NCBI GenBank assembly: GCA_903926695.1
Contig: CAIYKK010000493.1
Coordinates: 1-10,375, forward strand
DNA: 10,375 bases
From: an uncultured Burkholderiales bacterium
GTDB taxonomy: Bacteria > Pseudomonadota > Gammaproteobacteria > Burkholderiales > Burkholderiaceae_C
Reading direction: 5' to 3'
The position numbers and the translations under genes were made by a program. Under the pieces are notes generated by a model that saw only the letters and a list, made by a program, of their open reading frames with translations, made no database searches and was not told the DNA's origin. Shown here one piece after another: positions 2,487-9,716 of this stretch (its first letter is position 1; every line of letters begins with the position of its first letter).

Positions 2487-3167
2487 ATGCTTTTGAACGA
2501 CGGTGATCTTCAGGCCATCTGGCTGACCGTGCGGCTGGCTGGCATCGTGACGCTCATCCTGCTTTTGATCGGCACCCCTATCGCGTGGTGGCTGGCACGC
2601 TCCAGGGCGTGGTGGAAAGGTTCTGTCGGCGCCGTTGTGGCCTTGCCGCTGGTCTTGCCGCCTTCCGTGCTGGGTTTTTACCTGCTGCTGACGATGGGAC
2701 CCAATGGCCCGGTAGGCCATCTCACGCAGGCGCTGGGAATCGGACTTTTGCCCTTCACCTTCTGGGGCCTGGTGATTGCCTCCGTGTTTTACTCGCTGCC
2801 CTTCATGGTGCAGCCGCTGCAGACAGCGTTTGAGGCCATCGGCGAGCGTCCGCTTGAAGCCGCCGCCACCTTGCGCGCCTCGCCGCTCGACGCATTCTTC
2901 ACCGTCGCGGTGCCGCTGGCGCTGCCCGGCTTCCTGACGGCTGGCATCCTGACGTTTGCGCACACCGTGGGTGAATTCGGTGTGGTCCTGATGATTGGGG
3001 GCAACATTCCCGGCGTGACCCGCGTCGCTTCCGTGCAAATCTACGATCATGTAGAAGCCGTGGAATATCTAGAGGCGCATCGCCTGTCTGCGGTCATGCT
3101 GATCTTCTCCTTCCTCGTGCTTTTGGCGCTGTACGCCTGGCGGCCCGATTCAAGGAAAGGCAGTTGA
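2487..3167 (+). CDS. modB: Molybdate ABC transporter permease ModB
   Basis: A 226-residue integral membrane protein, normal for ModB. Hydrophobic segments are visible at about 13-35, 46-70, 86-108, 138-165 and 199-217, as expected for the five-helix core. [15 protein letters not shown] (53-67) is characteristic of ModB. The cytoplasmic EAA loop that docks on the ATPase reads [20 protein letters not shown] (124-143), followed by [30 protein letters not shown] (157-176) is another family hallmark. Two ModB subunits form the inner-membrane channel that takes molybdate from ModA. The gene begins 9 bp after modD with a poor Shine-Dalgarno, so translational coupling is likely. It ends 1 bp before the modC start codon. 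Confidence 0.95.
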
Positions 3168-3168
3168 C

Positions 3169-4242
3169 ATGACGGGAATCCAAGCGCGTTTTCACCTGGC
3201 CTGGCCAGATTTCACACTCGACATCGATCTCGAATTGCCCGCTCGCGGCGTGACCGCTCTCTTCGGCCCATCCGGCTGCGGCAAAACCAGCCTGCTGCGC
3301 TGCATGGCCGGGCTGAACCGCTCGCCCGCTGGCCGCTTTATCGTCAACGGCGAAATCTGGCAGGACGGCGATTTTTTCCTGCCCGTGCATCGGCGCGCGC
3401 TGGGCTACGTGTTTCAGGAAGCCAATTTGTTCGCACACCTGACGATACGGCGCAACCTCGACTACGGCCAGTCGCGCATTCCCGCCGCCGCCCGGCGCGT
3501 CGAGTTTGACCGCGCCGTCGAGCTGCTGGGCATCGGCCATTTGCTCGAACGCCAGCCCGCTGGCCTGTCCGGCGGCGAGCGCCAGCGCGTGGCCATTGCC
3601 AGAGCCCTGCTGACCAGCCCGCGCCTGCTGCTGATGGACGAGCCGCTGGCCGCGCTGGACCTGGCACGCAAGCAGGAATTCATGCCTTATTTGGAACGGC
3701 TGCACCACGAGCTGGACATTCCCGTCATCTACGTCACCCACGCGCCCGACGAAGTGGCGCGGCTCGCCGATCACATCGTCGTGATGAAAGAAGGCCGCGC
3801 CCTGGCCGCCGGGCCGCTGACCGAAACGCTGGCGCGTGTCGATCTGCCGATCCGCCTGGGCGAAGACGCGGGTGTGGTGCTGGACGCCGTGGTCGCTGAG
3901 CGCGAAGAAGAATGGCATCTGGCGCGGGTGGAGTTTGCGGGCGGCAGCCTGTGGGTGCGCGACGGCGGCCAGCCGCTGGGAGCAAAGGTGCGGGTGCGGA
4001 TTTTGGCGCGTGACGTGAGCATTGCGCTCGCGCCCGTCAGCGGCACCAGCATTCAGAACTGCTTGAGCGCCACCGTGGGCGAAATGGCCGACGACAGCCA
4101 CCCGGCGCTGTCCCTGTTAAGGCTCACCATCGGCCCCTCGCCCCTGCTGGCGCGGCTGACGCGGCGCTCGGCCGTGGGACTGGGTTTGGCGCCGGGCAAG
4201 GCGGTGTGGGCGCAGATCAAGGCGGTGGCGTTGGTTGGGTAG
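3169..4242 (+). CDS. modC: Molybdate ABC transporter ATP-binding protein ModC
   Basis: A 357-residue ATPase. Walker A is GPSGCGKTS (33-41), the Q-loop lies in VFQEAN (Q83), the ABC signature is LSGGERQR (133-140), Walker B is LLLMDEP (153-159) followed by LAALD, and the switch histidine is in VTHAPDE (H191). All catalytic residues expected of a working ATPase are present. After about residue 290 comes a C-terminal TOBE/Mop domain (SIQNCLSATV, then LLARLTRRSAVGLGLAPGKA). In ModC this domain binds oxyanion and can inhibit transport when cytoplasmic molybdate is high. The gene starts 1 bp after the modB stop, with an AAGGAAAGG-type purine run about 8 nt before its ATG. It is the last mod gene, and GC content drops sharply after it. 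Confidence 0.96.
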   Translation: MTGIQARFHLAWPDFTLDIDLELPARGVTALFGPSGCGKTSLLRCMAGLNRSPAGRFIVNGEIWQDGDFFLPVHRRALGYVFQEANLFAHLTIRRNLDYGQSRIPAAARRVEFDRAVELLGIGHLLERQPAGLSGGERQRVAIARALLTSPRLLLMDEPLAALDLARKQEFMPYLERLHHELDIPVIYVTHAPDEVARLADHIVVMKEGRALAAGPLTETLARVDLPIRLGEDAGVVLDAVVAEREEEWHLARVEFAGGSLWVRDGGQPLGAKVRVRILARDVSIALAPVSGTSIQNCLSATVGEMADDSHPALSLLRLTIGPSPLLARLTRRSAVGLGLAPGKAVWAQIKAVALVG

Positions 4243-4259
4243 TGACTGAGGTGACGTAG

Positions 4260-4295
4260 CGGTGTAGGTCGGGTTAGCCGCAGGCGAACCAAACA
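4260..4295. repeat. REP-like half element downstream of modC
   Basis: GGTGTAGGTCGGGTTAGCCG, followed by CAGGCGAACC, resembles the common proteobacterial repeat in which GTCGGGTTAGC is followed by an inverted GCGTAACCCGAC. Here only GGTT/AACC and the inner CC/GG can pair, so the element is degenerate or truncated. It sits at the boundary between the GC-rich mod cluster and the AT-rich toxin-antitoxin island. It might serve as a weak 3' hairpin for the mod transcript, but no T-run follows. Confidence 0.35.
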
Positions 4296-4331
4296 AGCAG
4301 CTATGTCAATCATCGAATTTAGTTATTCTTG

Positions 4332-4359
4332 GCTGTAGCCGCATATATGCGGCTACAGC
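4332..4359. promoter_or_regulatory. Perfect 28-bp palindrome (distal operator candidate of the AbiEi-like antitoxin)
   Basis: Each 14-nt arm reads GCTGTAGCCGCATA, with no spacer, so the centre is CATATATG. Its centre lies about 121 bp upstream of the centre of a second perfect palindrome that has the same outer GCTGT and the same CATATATG core. AbiEi antitoxins are known to bind inverted repeats upstream of their own gene and repress it, so an operator role fits. It is not followed by a T-run on either strand, which argues against an intrinsic terminator. Confidence 0.55.
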
Positions 4360-4427
4360 ATAAACAAATTTACCTAGTTCGTCAACAAAATTTAGCTCTA
4401 AGTTCTCCTCGTCAAACAGTTTGTCTC

Positions 4428-4456
4428 TTTTCAAAAAACGCAGAAGATGCTATGCT
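4428..4456 (+). promoter_or_regulatory. Putative promoter of the antitoxin gene
   Basis: TTTTCA (4428-4433) and TATGCT (4451-4456) are 17 bp apart. The -10 is preceded by TGC, giving an extended -10 (TGCTATGCT). The -35 match is weak. The -10 overlaps the left end of the palindrome at 4453-4480, and transcription would start inside that palindrome. This is the geometry expected for autorepression by a palindrome-binding antitoxin. Called by eye only. Confidence 0.35.
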
Positions 4457-4480
4457 GTTGGGCATATATGCCCAACAGCA
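4453..4480. promoter_or_regulatory. Perfect 28-bp palindrome (proximal operator candidate over the antitoxin promoter)
   Basis: Each arm reads TGCTGTTGGGCATA, meeting at a CATATATG centre with no mismatch. It shares the outer GCTGT and the core with the palindrome at 4332-4359, but has one base fewer per arm between those parts and a different inner sequence (TGGG instead of AGCCG). It lies 31 bp before the antitoxin start codon and overlaps the putative -10. Confidence 0.6.
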
Positions 4481-4500
4481 CCAACAACAAGCAGTCATTT

Positions 4501-4505
4501 AGGAG
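4501..4505 (+). promoter_or_regulatory. Ribosome binding site that fixes the antitoxin TTG start
   Basis: AGGAG stands 5 nt before the TTG at 4511. No in-frame ATG exists in the N-terminal part of this gene, so the Shine-Dalgarno decides the start. Confidence 0.7.
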
Positions 4506-4510
4506 CGCCA

Positions 4511-5401
4511 TTGGCTACTCGCATCCAGATCGCTAAGCAGGACATCATCAAGACGTTTGAGGAGTTGCCACGAATCCTTCGATCAGCTGATGTAGCAAAG
4601 ACTTTCGATAAAAATCGAGCGTTCTGGCGACTAGCTAAAAGCTCATCATTGAGGAGCTTCACAGAGTTTTTGGTTGAGAAAACCGCTCTCAAACCGGTGC
4701 GGTTCTGCTTTCCCCACCGCGAAGTGTCGGGCTATACGTGGGGTAACGTACCACTCTTGGAAATCCTTCTCGGTTTGGTGGATAACAGTTACTACAGCCA
4801 CTACACAGCAGTGCGACTGCATGGACTAACAGAGCAAGTACCTAAAACAGTCTATTTAAATCAGGAGAAATTGAGCACCTCTGCAAATTACTCTACCCAT
4901 ACTGACTTATTTTCTCAGGATGCGATTGACGCCGCTTTTCAGCAATCACCGCGAGTTTCACAGAATGAGGTCGTTCACGGGGATATTCGTATTATTTTTT
5001 TATCGAGCGCTTATAAAGCAATGCTTGGCGTGACAACCGAGACGGTGAACTACGGAGAAGATCATGACTTGCTTTTACGATTCACGAATTTAGAGCGAAC
5101 GCTCATTGACATCGTGGTCAGACCATTCTACTCCGGCGGCGTATTTGAAGTTGCCAAGGTATTTGAGAATGCCAAAAATCAAGTATCCGTGAATAGATTG
5201 AAAGCCATGCTGAAACAGATGGCATTTGGATATCCTTATCATCAGGCCATAGGGTTCTATTTAGAGCGGGCAGGCTACAAGCAGTCACAAATCGATATGT
5301 TTAAAAATCTGCCGATGGAGCGGGATTTTTACTTAACGCACGCAATGGGTAAAACCTCGTACGTGAAACAGTGGCATTTACATATTCCAGAGGGCTTCTA
5401 G
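4511..5401 (+). CDS. AbiEi-family antitoxin / transcriptional regulator (type IV toxin-antitoxin)
   Basis: From TTG 4511 the protein has 296 residues. Residues about 8-60 (IAKQDIIKTFEELPRILRSA, then FWRLAKSSSLRSF) suggest the winged-helix DNA-binding N-terminus of AbiEi-type regulators. The segment YYSHYTAVRLHGLTEQVPKT (94-113), followed by VYLNQEK, is the hallmark of the AbiEi C-terminal domain, and LLRFTNLERTLIDIVVRPFY further on also fits it. In AbiE systems this protein represses its own promoter and counteracts the AbiEii nucleotidyltransferase without forming a stable complex (type IV). I chose TTG 4511 because AGGAG lies 5 nt upstream; a longer TTG start at 4421 would translate through the promoter palindrome. 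The gene is much more AT-rich than the mod genes, a sign of separate origin. Its last 24 bp overlap the end of the opposite-strand toxin gene. Confidence 0.82.
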   Translation: MATRIQIAKQDIIKTFEELPRILRSADVAKTFDKNRAFWRLAKSSSLRSFTEFLVEKTALKPVRFCFPHREVSGYTWGNVPLLEILLGLVDNSYYSHYTAVRLHGLTEQVPKTVYLNQEKLSTSANYSTHTDLFSQDAIDAAFQQSPRVSQNEVVHGDIRIIFLSSAYKAMLGVTTETVNYGEDHDLLLRFTNLERTLIDIVVRPFYSGGVFEVAKVFENAKNQVSVNRLKAMLKQMAFGYPYHQAIGFYLERAGYKQSQIDMFKNLPMERDFYLTHAMGKTSYVKQWHLHIPEGF

Positions 5402-6277
5402 TCTCTTGCACTGATCTACGACGAAGTCACAGTAGTAATCGAACGGTTTGAGTATTACGCCTGGCTTCATCGTTGCTTTCACTTGGTCAAACCCGAGCGC
5501 ATGAAACTCTCTCATGTCCGCAATCCGTGCAAGATACTCCACTGGCACACGCTTAAGTTCAAACATCTTTACAATCATGTGTTTGGCTCGATCAGAGCCA
5601 ACATCAACATCAAACTTTTTGATGAGTGCTTCAATATCAATAAAATCACGTGCTCGCTGCTTTCCAGTGCCGCTTCGCCTAATGATTTCTCCATACTCAG
5701 GCATTTGTTGACAAATGGCCCGTAACTTTTCGCAAACAATCATTTCAGGCGAATAAACATATATTTGATAACCGTTGAGTTCTGCCTCCTGCTTTCCATC
5801 TGTATACTCATAACGGCTAATATCAATAGTAAAACGTGATCCCTCTCCCAGTTTGATGGCTTCTCGTCGCATGATTTCAATATCTCTTCTGATTTCGTCT
5901 GCACGCTTTATCGAAATCAACTTGAACTCCACTAAATAACCACCCCAAAAGGCTGCAAGTTCGTCAGGCATCTGCCCTGGGCGAGCCGACATCTTGATAT
6001 CGAATGCTAGATAACCTTCGAGCGCAAATGTAGTCAGAAGAGTACGCTCAAATCGCTTCTGAGCTGTAGCTTGATCAAAGTCACTCTTCATTGAGAAGTC
6101 GAGGTCAACTGACGCCCTAGCATTAACCTGATGGACTATATCCATTGCATTACCGCCTTTAAGAACCAACTGATCTAGCAATTCATCATCAGAAAACATA
6201 GCCACGATGGCAAGCTTTTTTATACTCTCGAGTTTGTCGCCTAATAGCCGCTCAGCAGAGACTCGTTGTTGCTTCAT
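5378..6277 (-). CDS. AbiEii-family nucleotidyltransferase toxin (type IV toxin-antitoxin)
   Basis: A 299-residue protein of the AbiEii/DUF1814 nucleotidyltransferase family. The active-site motif is visible as LVLKGGNAMDI (37-47), followed by ARASVDLDFSM (53-63); the paired glycines and the D58-L-D60 pair are the expected metal-binding pattern. A second conserved block, SPEMIVCEKLRAI (176-188), supplies the lysine K184. A third, RARDFIDIEALI (208-219), supplies the Arg-Asp-x-x-Asp pattern. No key residue seems lost. Family members stop growth, with NTP transfer to RNA targets shown for some relatives; the target here is unknown. The ATG at 6275-6277 has GAGAAG 7 nt upstream. The gene runs toward the antitoxin gene and overlaps its 3' end, and it lies 77 bp downstream of the Rep_3 gene on the same strand, so it may be partly read from the rep transcript. 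Confidence 0.85.
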   Translation of the reverse strand: MKQQRVSAERLLGDKLESIKKLAIVAMFSDDELLDQLVLKGGNAMDIVHQVNARASVDLDFSMKSDFDQATAQKRFERTLLTTFALEGYLAFDIKMSARPGQMPDELAAFWGGYLVEFKLISIKRADEIRRDIEIMRREAIKLGEGSRFTIDISRYEYTDGKQEAELNGYQIYVYSPEMIVCEKLRAICQQMPEYGEIIRRSGTGKQRARDFIDIEALIKKFDVDVGSDRAKHMIVKMFELKRVPVEYLARIADMREFHALGFDQVKATMKPGVILKPFDYYCDFVVDQCKRLEALWNM

Positions 6278-6284
6278 TTTTTAG

Positions 6285-6290
6285 CTTCTC
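6285..6290 (-). promoter_or_regulatory. Ribosome binding site of the AbiEii-like toxin gene
   Basis: On the minus strand GAGAAG stands 7 nt before the ATG at 6277, with an A-rich spacer. This is a moderate Shine-Dalgarno that allows independent translation of the toxin. Confidence 0.6.
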
Positions 6291-6354
6291 TTTCAGATTA
6301 AATATTTTTGATAATAGGACGTTGAGTTCACAACATATTTCTACTTCAACCAAG

Positions 6355-7689
6355 TTACTGCGCTGCCCGCAGAACCGCTGGATCTATTCCATTTCCCCGC
6401 ACGAATTCATCAAAGGCAGCTTCATCAAACACCGGAGTCACTTCCCGCCTGAGCCACGGCTTGAATAACGCATTGGTCATCGTGTCAGTGAATTTTCCGG
6501 TACGCAGATCAAAATTCCCGGTCTTGCCCCGGCCCTCTTCAGACGCCAGAAAGCGACTGGGATAGTCGGCCAGTTCGGCGGAGGTCAGGTTTTTGACAAT
6601 TTCACGCACCGTCTTGTCACGGAAATCTATCCGAAGCGCTTCATATTTAGCCTTGGCAGCAGCGGTTTTCTTTTCGTTATCGACAATGGCCTGTTCAGCA
6701 GTTTTACGGGCTTGGTAAGCGGTGCCGCCCAGATCAGCTTTTTCCTCGAACAGTTTTTTAATATAGCCAGCCGGGCTGGTTTTAATCAGCCCTTTCTTGT
6801 CGCGCTTTTCGGTTTCCTCGACGGCCAGACGGGCTTGCTCCGGGTCTTGCTTCATGTAAGCCAGCGCCAGCCGCTCTGCAAAGCCATGCTCGATCAACTT
6901 TTTAAAAGTTGCATCCTGCCGAATCAGCGCCATGCCATCCTCATCGAGCGGTTTGGGTGCAAACAAAGCCGACTGCGGGTTTTCTTCAATCAGGAAGCGC
7001 ACTGCCGCCACATGGCGCGCCTGGCGCTGGTATTCCACCGTGAGCTTGATGTCGGAAATGCGGTTAATTTCCTCGACGGCTTTTTTAATCACAAAACTGG
7101 ACAGGCGTTTAAAGTCGTCGTACATCGGGGCATTCGCGCCCATCAGTTGGCGGAATTTTTCCAGACTCCACCAGCCGGTGGAACGCACATTTTTAAAACG
7201 CACCGCATTTTCATACAGCGTCAGGCTGTAACCACCTTTAAAACCGCGCTGAACGCCGACGTTAATCGTGGCAAAAATAGCCGGATCGTGCAGCTTGGCC
7301 GCCAGTTCCTCAACATAGCCATAGGTGCATTCGCCATTGTTGAGCGAGCCGGTAATCTGCGCATAAGCCAGCAGCGTCATGGATTGCCAGACTTCCTGGC
7401 CGTCGTGCATCAGGTTGAACTCCACACGCGTGGTTTGCAGCCGGGCCAACGCTTGCTTGAGGTTGTCCAGGTTTTTTGAGCTTTCCCAGCCCAGCATGTG
7501 ACTGAGGTAACGCACGGGAATCGTGTGCCGCGAACTGGTCAGCAGCTTGTCATAGGCGTTGAGCAGCAGGATGTTGACGATCTTGCGCTCGACCAGGCCC
7601 AGCTCGCCGCTGGTGTGAACCGCCGCCACATGCTTGCGCAGAACGCCGTTGGTTAGCTTTTTGGGAGGGGATTTTTGGGAAGTGGCCAT
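6355..7689 (-). CDS. Rep_3/RepB-family plasmid replication initiator
   Basis: A 444-residue initiator of the Rep_3 superfamily (relatives include F RepE, pPS10 RepA and R6K pi). The first winged-helix domain covers about 17-135, opening with LRKHVAAVHTSGELGLVERK and including IPVRYLSHMLGW. The second holds the DNA-contact signature GWWSLEKFRQLMG (172-184), DDFKRLSSFVIKKAVEEINR (191-210), then ISDIKLTVEYQRQARHVAAV and RFLIEE. Such proteins bind direct-repeat iterons as monomers to open the origin and act as dimers on an inverted repeat to repress their own gene; both kinds of site lie directly upstream. Beyond about residue 240 is a charged extension that makes it longer than the roughly 250-310 residues common in the family. 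It includes a Lys/Ala-rich helix at 325-350. No clear Shine-Dalgarno precedes the ATG. Confidence 0.9.
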   Translation of the reverse strand: MATSQKSPPKKLTNGVLRKHVAAVHTSGELGLVERKIVNILLLNAYDKLLTSSRHTIPVRYLSHMLGWESSKNLDNLKQALARLQTTRVEFNLMHDGQEVWQSMTLLAYAQITGSLNNGECTYGYVEELAAKLHDPAIFATINVGVQRGFKGGYSLTLYENAVRFKNVRSTGWWSLEKFRQLMGANAPMYDDFKRLSSFVIKKAVEEINRISDIKLTVEYQRQARHVAAVRFLIEENPQSALFAPKPLDEDGMALIRQDATFKKLIEHGFAERLALAYMKQDPEQARLAVEETEKRDKKGLIKTSPAGYIKKLFEEKADLGGTAYQARKTAEQAIVDNEKKTAAAKAKYEALRIDFRDKTVREIVKNLTSAELADYPSRFLASEEGRGKTGNFDLRTGKFTDTMTNALFKPWLRREVTPVFDEAAFDEFVRGNGIDPAVLRAAQ

Positions 7690-8465: not shown

Positions 8466-9716
8466 TCATTTGCCGTCAGCAAGCGGCTTGCCCGGCTTTG
8501 CCTGCAGGTGCTTGCGCTGGGACTGGCTCGGGTCGCGGCTGACGTTGACCAGATCGCCGTGAGTGATTTCCCACGAAAACGCCTGCCCTACCTGCAGACA
8601 GGCTTGCACCAGCACATCGAGCGCCGGAATCAGGCTGCCGTCACGCCAGCCAAGGATGGCTTTGTTTCTTTCCGCATCGGTCAAGGTCTGGTCGCCGGTT
8701 GCGCTGCCGCACAGCTTGTGCAGCGTTTCCACCTTGAGCGGAAACGGACACGCGTGGGTCGAGTAAAAGCCATGTAGCCACTGCGCCAGCGGGTGGCCGC
8801 GCAGCGCCTCGCGCAGGCTCCAGTCGATCTGCGTCCAGCCTTCGCGGCCAAACATCACTTTCATGCGCGGGTTGAGCACCAGCACATAGCGCCCGCTGTC
8901 CTCGTCGCGGAAATACTCGTCCACCAGCGAGCCCGCGTAGGCATACGGGCCTTGCTTGATCTCCACCGTGTTCGCCGAGAGCCGCGCCAGCGCATTTTTC
9001 AGCCAGTCGCGGTCGCTTTTGCCGATGTTCACGCCGCCCTCGCCGCCCCGGCCAATCAGCCGCAAAAAGCTTTTTTCGGTGAACTCGATGCGGTTGCCCA
9101 GCGGAGCGAGCCGCGCCAGGTGCAGCGCGCCCTGCCACACGTCAAGGTCGGACTGATCCAGGCGCGGGCCGGTGTAGAGGATGTCGATGCCCTGCACCGA
9201 GGCAAAAACTTCGCGCTCCACATAGCGCCGCTTGCCGCGCTTGATGGCGCCGAACAGCGCCGAGCGCAGGATGCCGTTGGGCACGCCGCGCACGGCGTCG
9301 GGCCAAAACGGCAGCTGCGCGGGTGCGGCCAGGGCGCGCTCGGTGGTTTTACGCCGAATAGCGTCCAGCAGGCGGCCCGCTGGCGCTTCGCCGGGCTTGG
9401 CTGAGGGTAGCCCTGCCTGATGGGGCGTTTTGCGGTCACGGGCGTCACGGCAGGCCCGGATGCGCTCTTGCAGGCGGGCTATTTCACCTTCGCACTCGGA
9501 TTTTTTGGCCTCCAGCGTTTTGATCTGGCGCCACAGCAGTTCGGTTTCGTGCTGGCGGGCGGGCGTGTCTTCGCGCCGTTCGAGCGCAATCAGCCGGGCC
9601 TGGGCGGCAATGATTTCTTCGGCAATCTGCTTGGACAGGCGGATGAAGCGGTCTTCGCTGAGCACATCGGCATCGTGGCCTGATGGCGGCTGGTCTGTTG
9701 AATCGGTGGTTTTCAT
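8466..9716 (-). CDS. trfA: TrfA-family plasmid replication initiator
   Basis: A 416-residue protein. Its C-terminal two thirds match the TrfA family of IncP-type plasmids: QLPFWPDAVRGVPNGILRSA (134-153), DILYTGPRLDQSD (178-190), RIEFTEKSFLRLIGR (209-223), a 'WLKNALARLSANTVEIK' helix (238-254) and HPLAQWLHGFYSTHACPFPL (308-327), then KVETLHKLCGS. TrfA binds iterons at oriV and recruits host DnaA and helicase. The first 130 residues are not part of the core. Residues about 25-93 are a charged, Leu/Ile-spaced helix that looks like a coiled coil. The ATG gives MKTTDSTDQP and has no strong Shine-Dalgarno. Unlike RP4, where oriV and trfA are apart, the iterons here directly follow the gene's 3' end. 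The symbol reflects family membership, not proven orthology. Confidence 0.88.
   Translation of the reverse strand: MKTTDSTDQPPSGHDADVLSEDRFIRLSKQIAEEIIAAQARLIALERREDTPARQHETELLWRQIKTLEAKKSECEGEIARLQERIRACRDARDRKTPHQAGLPSAKPGEAPAGRLLDAIRRKTTERALAAPAQLPFWPDAVRGVPNGILRSALFGAIKRGKRRYVEREVFASVQGIDILYTGPRLDQSDLDVWQGALHLARLAPLGNRIEFTEKSFLRLIGRGGEGGVNIGKSDRDWLKNALARLSANTVEIKQGPYAYAGSLVDEYFRDEDSGRYVLVLNPRMKVMFGREGWTQIDWSLREALRGHPLAQWLHGFYSTHACPFPLKVETLHKLCGSATGDQTLTDAERNKAILGWRDGSLIPALDVLVQACLQVGQAFSWEITHGDLVNVSRDPSQSQRKHLQAKPGKPLADGK

Follow-up and report, generated by a model that had tools for sequence, protein, structure and literature searches.

AbiE is a type IV toxin–antitoxin (TA) system in which toxicity is neutralised without a stable complex, and which provides phage resistance or plasmid stabilisation, while the toxins of the MenAT systems add nucleotides to the 3′ ends of tRNA. 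According to the available text of PMC3985639, described abiE loci are same-strand operons in which the regulator gene precedes the nucleotidyltransferase gene in each case, as our initial annotation had stated. The locus considered here lies in a window of 10,375 nucleotides, by which we mean the whole stretch of DNA analysed, from an uncultured Burkholderiales bacterium. It resembles AbiE of S. agalactiae and L. lactis in its AbiEi fold, its AbiEii/DUF1814 toxin family and the inverted repeats upstream of the antitoxin gene. Nevertheless, AbiE is a same-strand operon with the antitoxin first and a 4-nt overlap, and its 23-bp repeats have 4 mismatches around N3 and match perfectly across just 11 bp around N27 (PMC3985639, available text), whereas those of the window are gapless and perfect.

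MenAT3 and MenAT4 of M. tuberculosis (Rv1044-Rv1045 and Rv2827c-Rv2826c) share with the window the toxin fold (MenT3/TglT, MenT4), the antitoxin fold (Rv2827c) and a serine before the DxD motif, but they are same-strand operons, and Rv2827c has two pairs of 23-bp repeats (PMC7319586, available part). The toxin fold is also that of the H. pylori nucleotidyltransferase JHP933. Head-to-head AbiE-like pairs (L113–L118 and L128) belong to the same protein subfamily as the window pair, with genes on opposite strands and a TATATA-type palindrome core as in the convergent loci; unlike the window genes, theirs are divergent, which places the palindromes between the starts of the two genes. On balance, we favour the reading that the window contains a TA locus belonging to a convergent group that is sister to AbiE, in which the antitoxin probably autoregulates via palindromes and the toxin is transcribed separately, towards the antitoxin.

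Convergent genes with a shared end

The AbiEi-like antitoxin gene lies at positions 4511–5401 of the forward strand (296 aa, stop TAG at 5401) and the AbiEii-like nucleotidyltransferase toxin gene at 5378–6277 of the reverse strand (299 aa, TAA stop at 5378). The open reading frame coordinates agree with the ends first annotated, and the antiparallel overlap at 5378–5401 is, as also annotated, exactly 24 bp that code for both C-termini; the last eight codons of the two genes are the same 24 bp. With codons in register, the overlap encodes LHIPEGF-stop on one strand and LEALWNM-stop on the other, each stop codon facing a leucine codon of the partner gene. The antitoxin start, a TTG at 4511, matches the start positions of homologues in an alignment of the window and 27 proteins chosen among the best 120 of 5269 matches, and is preceded by a Shine–Dalgarno-like AGGAG at 4501–4505 (+), read from the sequence; the longest open frame begins 5′ of it, at 4421. 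The window's assembly (86% complete) contained one antitoxin match and one PF08843 match, both at the window locus, and no second same-strand antitoxin of the same type, which the initial annotation had named as a possible true partner of the toxin, was seen in it.

Genes for a molybdate-transport-like binding protein (210–962), a QRPTase-like protein (1530–2477), a molybdate-transport-like permease (2487–3167) and a molybdate-transport-like ATPase with a TOBE domain (3169–4242) stand on one side of the pair; on the other are a Rep3 plasmid replication gene (6355–7689, reverse strand) and a TrfA-like plasmid replication gene (8466–9716, reverse strand). The contig could represent a plasmid, either free or integrated, or an assembly of mixed origin. 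The Rep3 gene is separated from the toxin start by 77 bp (6278–6354) on the same strand, and the toxin might therefore be read together with it.

The antitoxin matched PADLOC AbiEi models (best E 5.7e-19) and scored 17.6 bits against Pfam AbiEi_1, under the cut-off of 22.2, and nothing was found for it in NCBIfam or PHROGs. Its AlphaFold2 model (mean pLDDT 90.0) comprises a winged helix-turn-helix at about residues 4–77 and a C-terminal domain, and the first Foldseek matches in the PDB were AbiEi of S. agalactiae (6y8q, 2.1e-5) and Rv2827c of M. tuberculosis (1zel, 9.3e-5). The PADLOC and fold matches thus suggest membership in AbiEi, against which the Pfam score stands. Searching PDB sequences with antitoxin and toxin, each as a single query, found no relative.

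The toxin scored 76.2 bits against Pfam AbiEii (cut-off 22.5), and its AlphaFold2 model (mean pLDDT 87.6) found MenT3/TglT (2.8e-9), JHP933 (1.7e-7) and MenT4 (3.1e-5) as first Foldseek matches. It has the motifs KGG, DxD and RDFID and a motif III-like EKLRAICQQ; motifs I, II and IV of the DUF1814/AbiEii nucleotidyltransferase toxins of AbiE are thus present, whereas motif III ends in CQQ instead of Arg, as in 61 of the 65 toxins of at least 230 aa. Seven residues on from the Lys, this end corresponds to R180 of S. agalactiae AbiEii, for which the available text of PMC3985639 reports that R180A abolished toxicity. The toxin's Ser56 lies two residues N-terminal to DxD, the place of the Ser/Thr phosphoacceptor of MenT proteins (PMC11375011, available text), and a serine is found there in 64 of the same 65 toxins, the pattern being absent in one. 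An earlier idea that the phosphoacceptor had been lost, with the KGGN loop taken as the site, was rejected, since the position given in the available part of PMC11375011 differs and there the serine is kept.

A scan of genome contigs (one genome per species, 84,980 species) gave 123 confirmed loci from 148 stretches. The best 80 of the 123 were used in a set of 83 loci, the window plus L002–L083, whose layout was read with profiles of both proteins; the window's own copies (L001, L085, L112, L159 and L160) were left uncounted. A convergent and adjacent toxin gene was found in 73 of the 83 loci, and no adjacent same-strand or divergent toxin was seen in any of these loci. The remaining ten, with no toxin seen, include L014 and L033, which stop at a contig edge, and L044, with a weak toxin match (6.8e-4) about 1 kb upstream. 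The L033 contig, of Desulfomonilaceae, stops 60 bp past the convergent-type antitoxin, and its toxin match belongs to a second AbiE-like pair upstream. Convergence, initially considered a possible rearranged subtype, is instead the usual layout of the subfamily in many phyla. The bicistronic same-strand operon with the antitoxin first is missing from the window, and for this reason we have not filed the pair as canonical AbiE. It had also been asked initially whether convergent pairs were already common and described: common they are in our set, but neither convergent AbiE nor palindromes of this kind were found described in the literature searched, which comprised main texts (including the available text of PMC8562856 and PMC8436566), few of them from subscription journals, and AbiE terms were absent from the available part of PMC2701414.

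An overlap of exactly 24 bp with the codon register kept was found in 41 of the 83 loci (the best 80 of 123 included). Overlaps of 27, 30, 36, 39 or 69 bp, in the same register, occurred in nine loci and overlaps of 4, 8, 12, 14 or 19 bp in 15; seven had zero overlap or a gap, and L057, whose antitoxin frame comes from the contig edge and runs on, was unusable. That exactly 24 bp recur in 41 loci, other lengths of 4–69 bp being seen in 24, argues for an overlap beyond chance. Among these best 80 of 123 contig loci, the exact overlap spans five named phyla, being present in Pseudomonadota (18/25), Acidobacteriota (8/12), Planctomycetota (7/11), Binatota (1/1) and Verrucomicrobiota (1/1), besides three loci without a named phylum, and absent from Bacteroidota (0/16), Bacillota (0/3), Chlorobiota (0/1) and Myxococcota (0/1). 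A Brevibacillus plasmid (Bacillota) has it.

In PLSDB, 39 plasmid records matched the antitoxin and 37 the toxin; of 18 inspected, nine were convergent, seven divergent and two, from Sulfurimonas (L125) and Aliarcobacter (L126), lacked an AbiEii match. In these two plasmids the AbiEi-like gene points away from an annotated HipA-type gene, and in L125 two palindromes with the core GTATATAC lie between the two genes (about 2114–2232); the AbiEi-like protein is here perhaps an antitoxin with a different partner. From the viral contigs scanned came a single relative, L084, which is distant and has a same-strand layout.

Weak same-class or viral relatives numbered 27 (L084 and L086–L111), and the 11 with a same-strand toxin match entered a quick tree of 109 antitoxins, from which L057 was excluded. 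These 11 split from the other 98 rows with a support of 89; one row labelled same-strand among the 98 is the mislabelled L033. The seven divergent loci, all on plasmids of Bacillota (Streptococcus suis, Lactococcus, Lactiplantibacillus, Brochothrix, Ligilactobacillus and Staphylococcus pseudintermedius), form one group (support 94) nested within the 98, so that the sole non-convergent layout seen within the subfamily is head-to-head and not an operon. Layout labels required 12 changes on the tree, against a mean of 29 when shuffled; its deep joins are unsure, owing to long branches and gappy rows in the same-strand set. For comparison, 72 of the 249 genomes scanned from the phylum had PF08843 matches, and the best 30 of these control loci had a same-strand upstream neighbour, by our rule, in 25 cases (not in L133, L141, L144, L148 and L153), 23 of the 25 neighbours matching one PADLOC AbiEi model.

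The overlap could be historical and without a regulatory role, the genes having once become convergent with two C-termini that matter and stops that are hard to move, and we regard this as possible, if somewhat less than probable. Its length shifts between lineages while convergence stays: 14 of the 16 Bacteroidota contigs have 4–19 bp, and Bacillota have gaps of up to 347 bp. Moreover, the antitoxin end encoded by the overlap is modelled by AlphaFold2 as a strand (290–293) following strand 282–285; it therefore looks like part of the fold, and a terminal beta strand would be enough to keep its residues. Codon usage was set aside as proof: the leucine codons facing the stops are CTA or TTA in 41 of 41 loci both ways, compared with 217 of 1827 other leucine codons, but this is forced by construction from 24 bp and leucine, and the proline codon CCA (31/41 vs 90/435) was likewise set aside as tied to the toxin's tryptophan. 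Against a merely historical overlap, convergence has been kept over several phyla and the only alternative within the subfamily is head-to-head, although regulation is not implied by this.

Perfect palindromes with variable arms

Upstream of the antitoxin gene the window has two perfect 28-bp palindromes with 14-bp arms and no spacer, P1 (4332–4359) and P2 (4453–4480), which we regard as candidate operators; the centre of P2 lies about 45 bp upstream of the antitoxin start. They are the two longest inverted repeats of the window (arms of at least 11, distance of at most 60), and as single-stranded DNA they would fold into hairpins of -14.8 kcal/mol (z -6.2) and -14.3 kcal/mol (z -6.95), respectively. 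Their inner 10 bp are alike, and the outer GCTGT is also common to both, with its spacing off by one. The common core GCATATATGC has no other occurrence in the 3.25-Mb assembly. The initial annotation had noted neither these palindromes nor the recurrent 24 bp and the divergent relatives.

Such palindromes are a regular feature of the convergent loci. In 90 loci of the convergent set, 162 perfect palindromes (arms of at least 11, spacer of at most 4) fell in the 300 bp that precede the antitoxin gene (78 of the 90 loci), compared with one upstream of a toxin and 41 at other places in 702 kb, some of which are further upstream copies. An independent score of at least 11 was reached by 75 of 82 antitoxin upstream regions and two of 72 toxin upstream regions. 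Of 88 loci (position statistics without L033 and L057), 79 have at least one palindrome member in the 1500 bp before the antitoxin gene; within 500 bp there is one member in 18 loci, two in 36, three in 18 and four or five in seven. The centre nearest to the antitoxin start is at a median of 55 bp, and the median centre-to-centre spacing is 110 bp (106 values). Helical phasing of the copies was rejected: among 94 spacings of 40–146 bp (two of 8 bp and those of at least 172 bp left out), the best period of about 11.7 bp was weak (p 0.04, jitter test) and is not the helical repeat.

Palindromes also adjoin toxin-less antitoxins (L027, L028, L044, L049, L053 and L076), and in the divergent loci the same type lies between both gene starts, scoring by the antitoxin rule in six of seven and by the toxin rule in the seventh. 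Nine of the 88 loci have none, and in three of the nine (L060, L080 and L127) the convergent toxin looks intact. Palindromes were missing in six of 15 loci with a broken or absent toxin versus three of 71 others (Fisher p 0.0007, groups assigned by hand after the fact, kinship ignored, L014 and L067 left out for their contig ends), a tie between palindrome loss and toxin loss that is a lead only. Among the 30 PF08843 controls, five have one palindrome and none has two, that of L153 being just upstream of a candidate antitoxin; two of the 27 weak relatives (L101 and L104) score by the upstream rule. L086 (about 1021–1175) and L101 (about 2174–2329), weak relatives outside the convergent type and the former a same-strand pair, each carry two long perfect palindromes just upstream of an AbiEi-like gene, with arms of 28 and 27 and of 22 and 19, respectively. 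Their cores are other ones, common within the locus, and the outer arms differ but are paired. Tandem palindromes are therefore not confined to the convergent branch, and convergence and the possession of palindromes are separate traits.

The pairing test was seeded with positions 2–8 from the centre only, so that positions 9 onward were unselected. In 196 members from 81 of 88 loci, outer pairing at positions 9–14 was 95, 96, 95, 95, 91 and 81%, falling to 47% and then 37% past position 14, while shuffled arms paired at 27–35% over positions 9–14. Control seeds numbered four in the coding stretch of 88 antitoxins and one upstream of 79 toxins. The paired letters vary: the 145 members fully paired at 9–14 carry 109 distinct outer 6-mers, and of 94 same-locus copy pairs with equal positions 2–6, 88 show differences at no fewer than two outer positions out of six, both copies being fully paired at 9–13 in 63 of these 88. 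Pairing itself thus seems to be maintained in the outer arms, as judged from sequence comparison. That the arms are variable yet paired raises the possibility that DNA base pairing, as a hairpin or cruciform, or a process of hairpin copying is part of their function or upkeep. Cruciforms form more readily where the centre is AT-rich, and a palindrome can be made perfect by template switching.

Another view, which we consider unlikely, has the palindromes serve as ordinary operators for a symmetric protein complex, all pairing being set by protein contacts and no hairpin being formed. AbiEi and Rv2827c do bind inverted repeats (PMC3985639 and PMC7319586, available text), the core of P1 and P2 is unique to its locus in the window's assembly, and the inner core is more alike within than between loci (0.78 vs 0.41 at position 6). 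Nor are the outer letters wholly free in betaproteobacteria, where the arms often end in TGCT, those of P1 and P2 ending in GCTGT. However, a single sequence-reading protein does not predict variable but paired arms of the kind seen in the same-core copy pairs.

Pairing might also be kept by mutation instead of selection, if hairpins at replication forks let one arm template the other, and we hold this to be similarly improbable. In 25 close locus pairs, which are not independent, 24 symmetric two-arm changes and 12 one-arm changes were counted, and L020 and L022, with antitoxins about 97% identical, differ by two symmetric palindrome changes. One-arm changes nevertheless occur, the drop past position 14 (81% to 47%) is sharp, and similar perfect palindromes are rare elsewhere in the loci (the 41 in 702 kb), all of which speak against upkeep by mutation.

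Transcription, toxicity and control

That the gene pair does not function as a TA system at all appears quite unlikely to us. The antitoxin score under the Pfam cut-off and the CQQ terminus of motif III would fit a non-functional pair, but the genes stay together across several phyla and their folds match proven toxins and antitoxins. Moreover, in five loci (L025, L048, L050, L052 and L065) the convergent toxin match is split into two or more frame pieces and the antitoxin frame is open, in a set of loci picked by the antitoxin. Even less likely, indeed very improbable, are RNA hairpins in the antitoxin mRNA leader, since, although the palindromes precede the antitoxin gene and part of them come close to its start, no Rfam family is nearby and mismatches at 9–14 (six G-T, 11 A-C and 35 other, total 52, in 186 members with at least four of six paired) show no wobble excess, which speaks for palindromes that act as DNA rather than RNA.

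For a convergent TA locus related to AbiE, we propose that the antitoxin binds the palindrome core and controls its own promoter, as the behaviour of AbiEi and Rv2827c, the locus-specific core and the palindromes beside toxin-less antitoxins suggest. The toxin would be transcribed separately without a palindrome operator, in the window perhaps jointly with the rep gene that ends 77 bp before it. The initial annotation had the toxin uncoupled from the antitoxin promoter; for the operator this looks right, because candidate operators precede the antitoxin gene and only very rarely the toxin gene, but for the promoter itself our scan of 4200–6500 was at chance level, with five sites where 3.9 were expected and none fitting just upstream of either start. 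A terminator scan of the same interval gave one weak site, within the antitoxin gene, where 2.5 were expected; with no terminator seen at the junction, read-through of each transcript into the opposite gene is likely. Transcription of the antitoxin would then tend to keep the toxin in check, and both genes would be damaged by a break within the shared 24 bp. Antisense control, RNase III processing or transcriptional interference might play a part, as the initial annotation suggested.

The toxin could modify tRNA like MenT proteins, as its fold and the available text of work on MenT and Serratia AbiE suggest (PMC11375011, PMC7725324). The antitoxin would silence it, perhaps through induced phosphorylation of the conserved serine, a mode reported for MenT1 and MenT3. 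Furthermore, the antitoxin might read DNA structure together with sequence, that is, a locus-specific core within a hairpin or cruciform formed by the paired 14-bp arms, although we regard this extension as doubtful.

Conclusions

A widely annotated defence and plasmid-maintenance family appears to have a branch, distributed over several phyla, that is unable to use the textbook operon logic, so that its toxin:antitoxin balance must be set otherwise. The in-register 24 bp are an unusual case of antiparallel overlapping genes held at one length across phyla. The palindromes, for their part, amount to a natural covariation experiment, by which the dependence of a regulator on a DNA hairpin or cruciform, or a perfection kept by copying, becomes testable. 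If DNA structure is indeed read, supercoiling, or single-stranded DNA during replication, plasmid transfer or phage entry, would influence antitoxin expression, and the operator-free convergent toxin would be expressed when palindrome control or opposing transcription fails.
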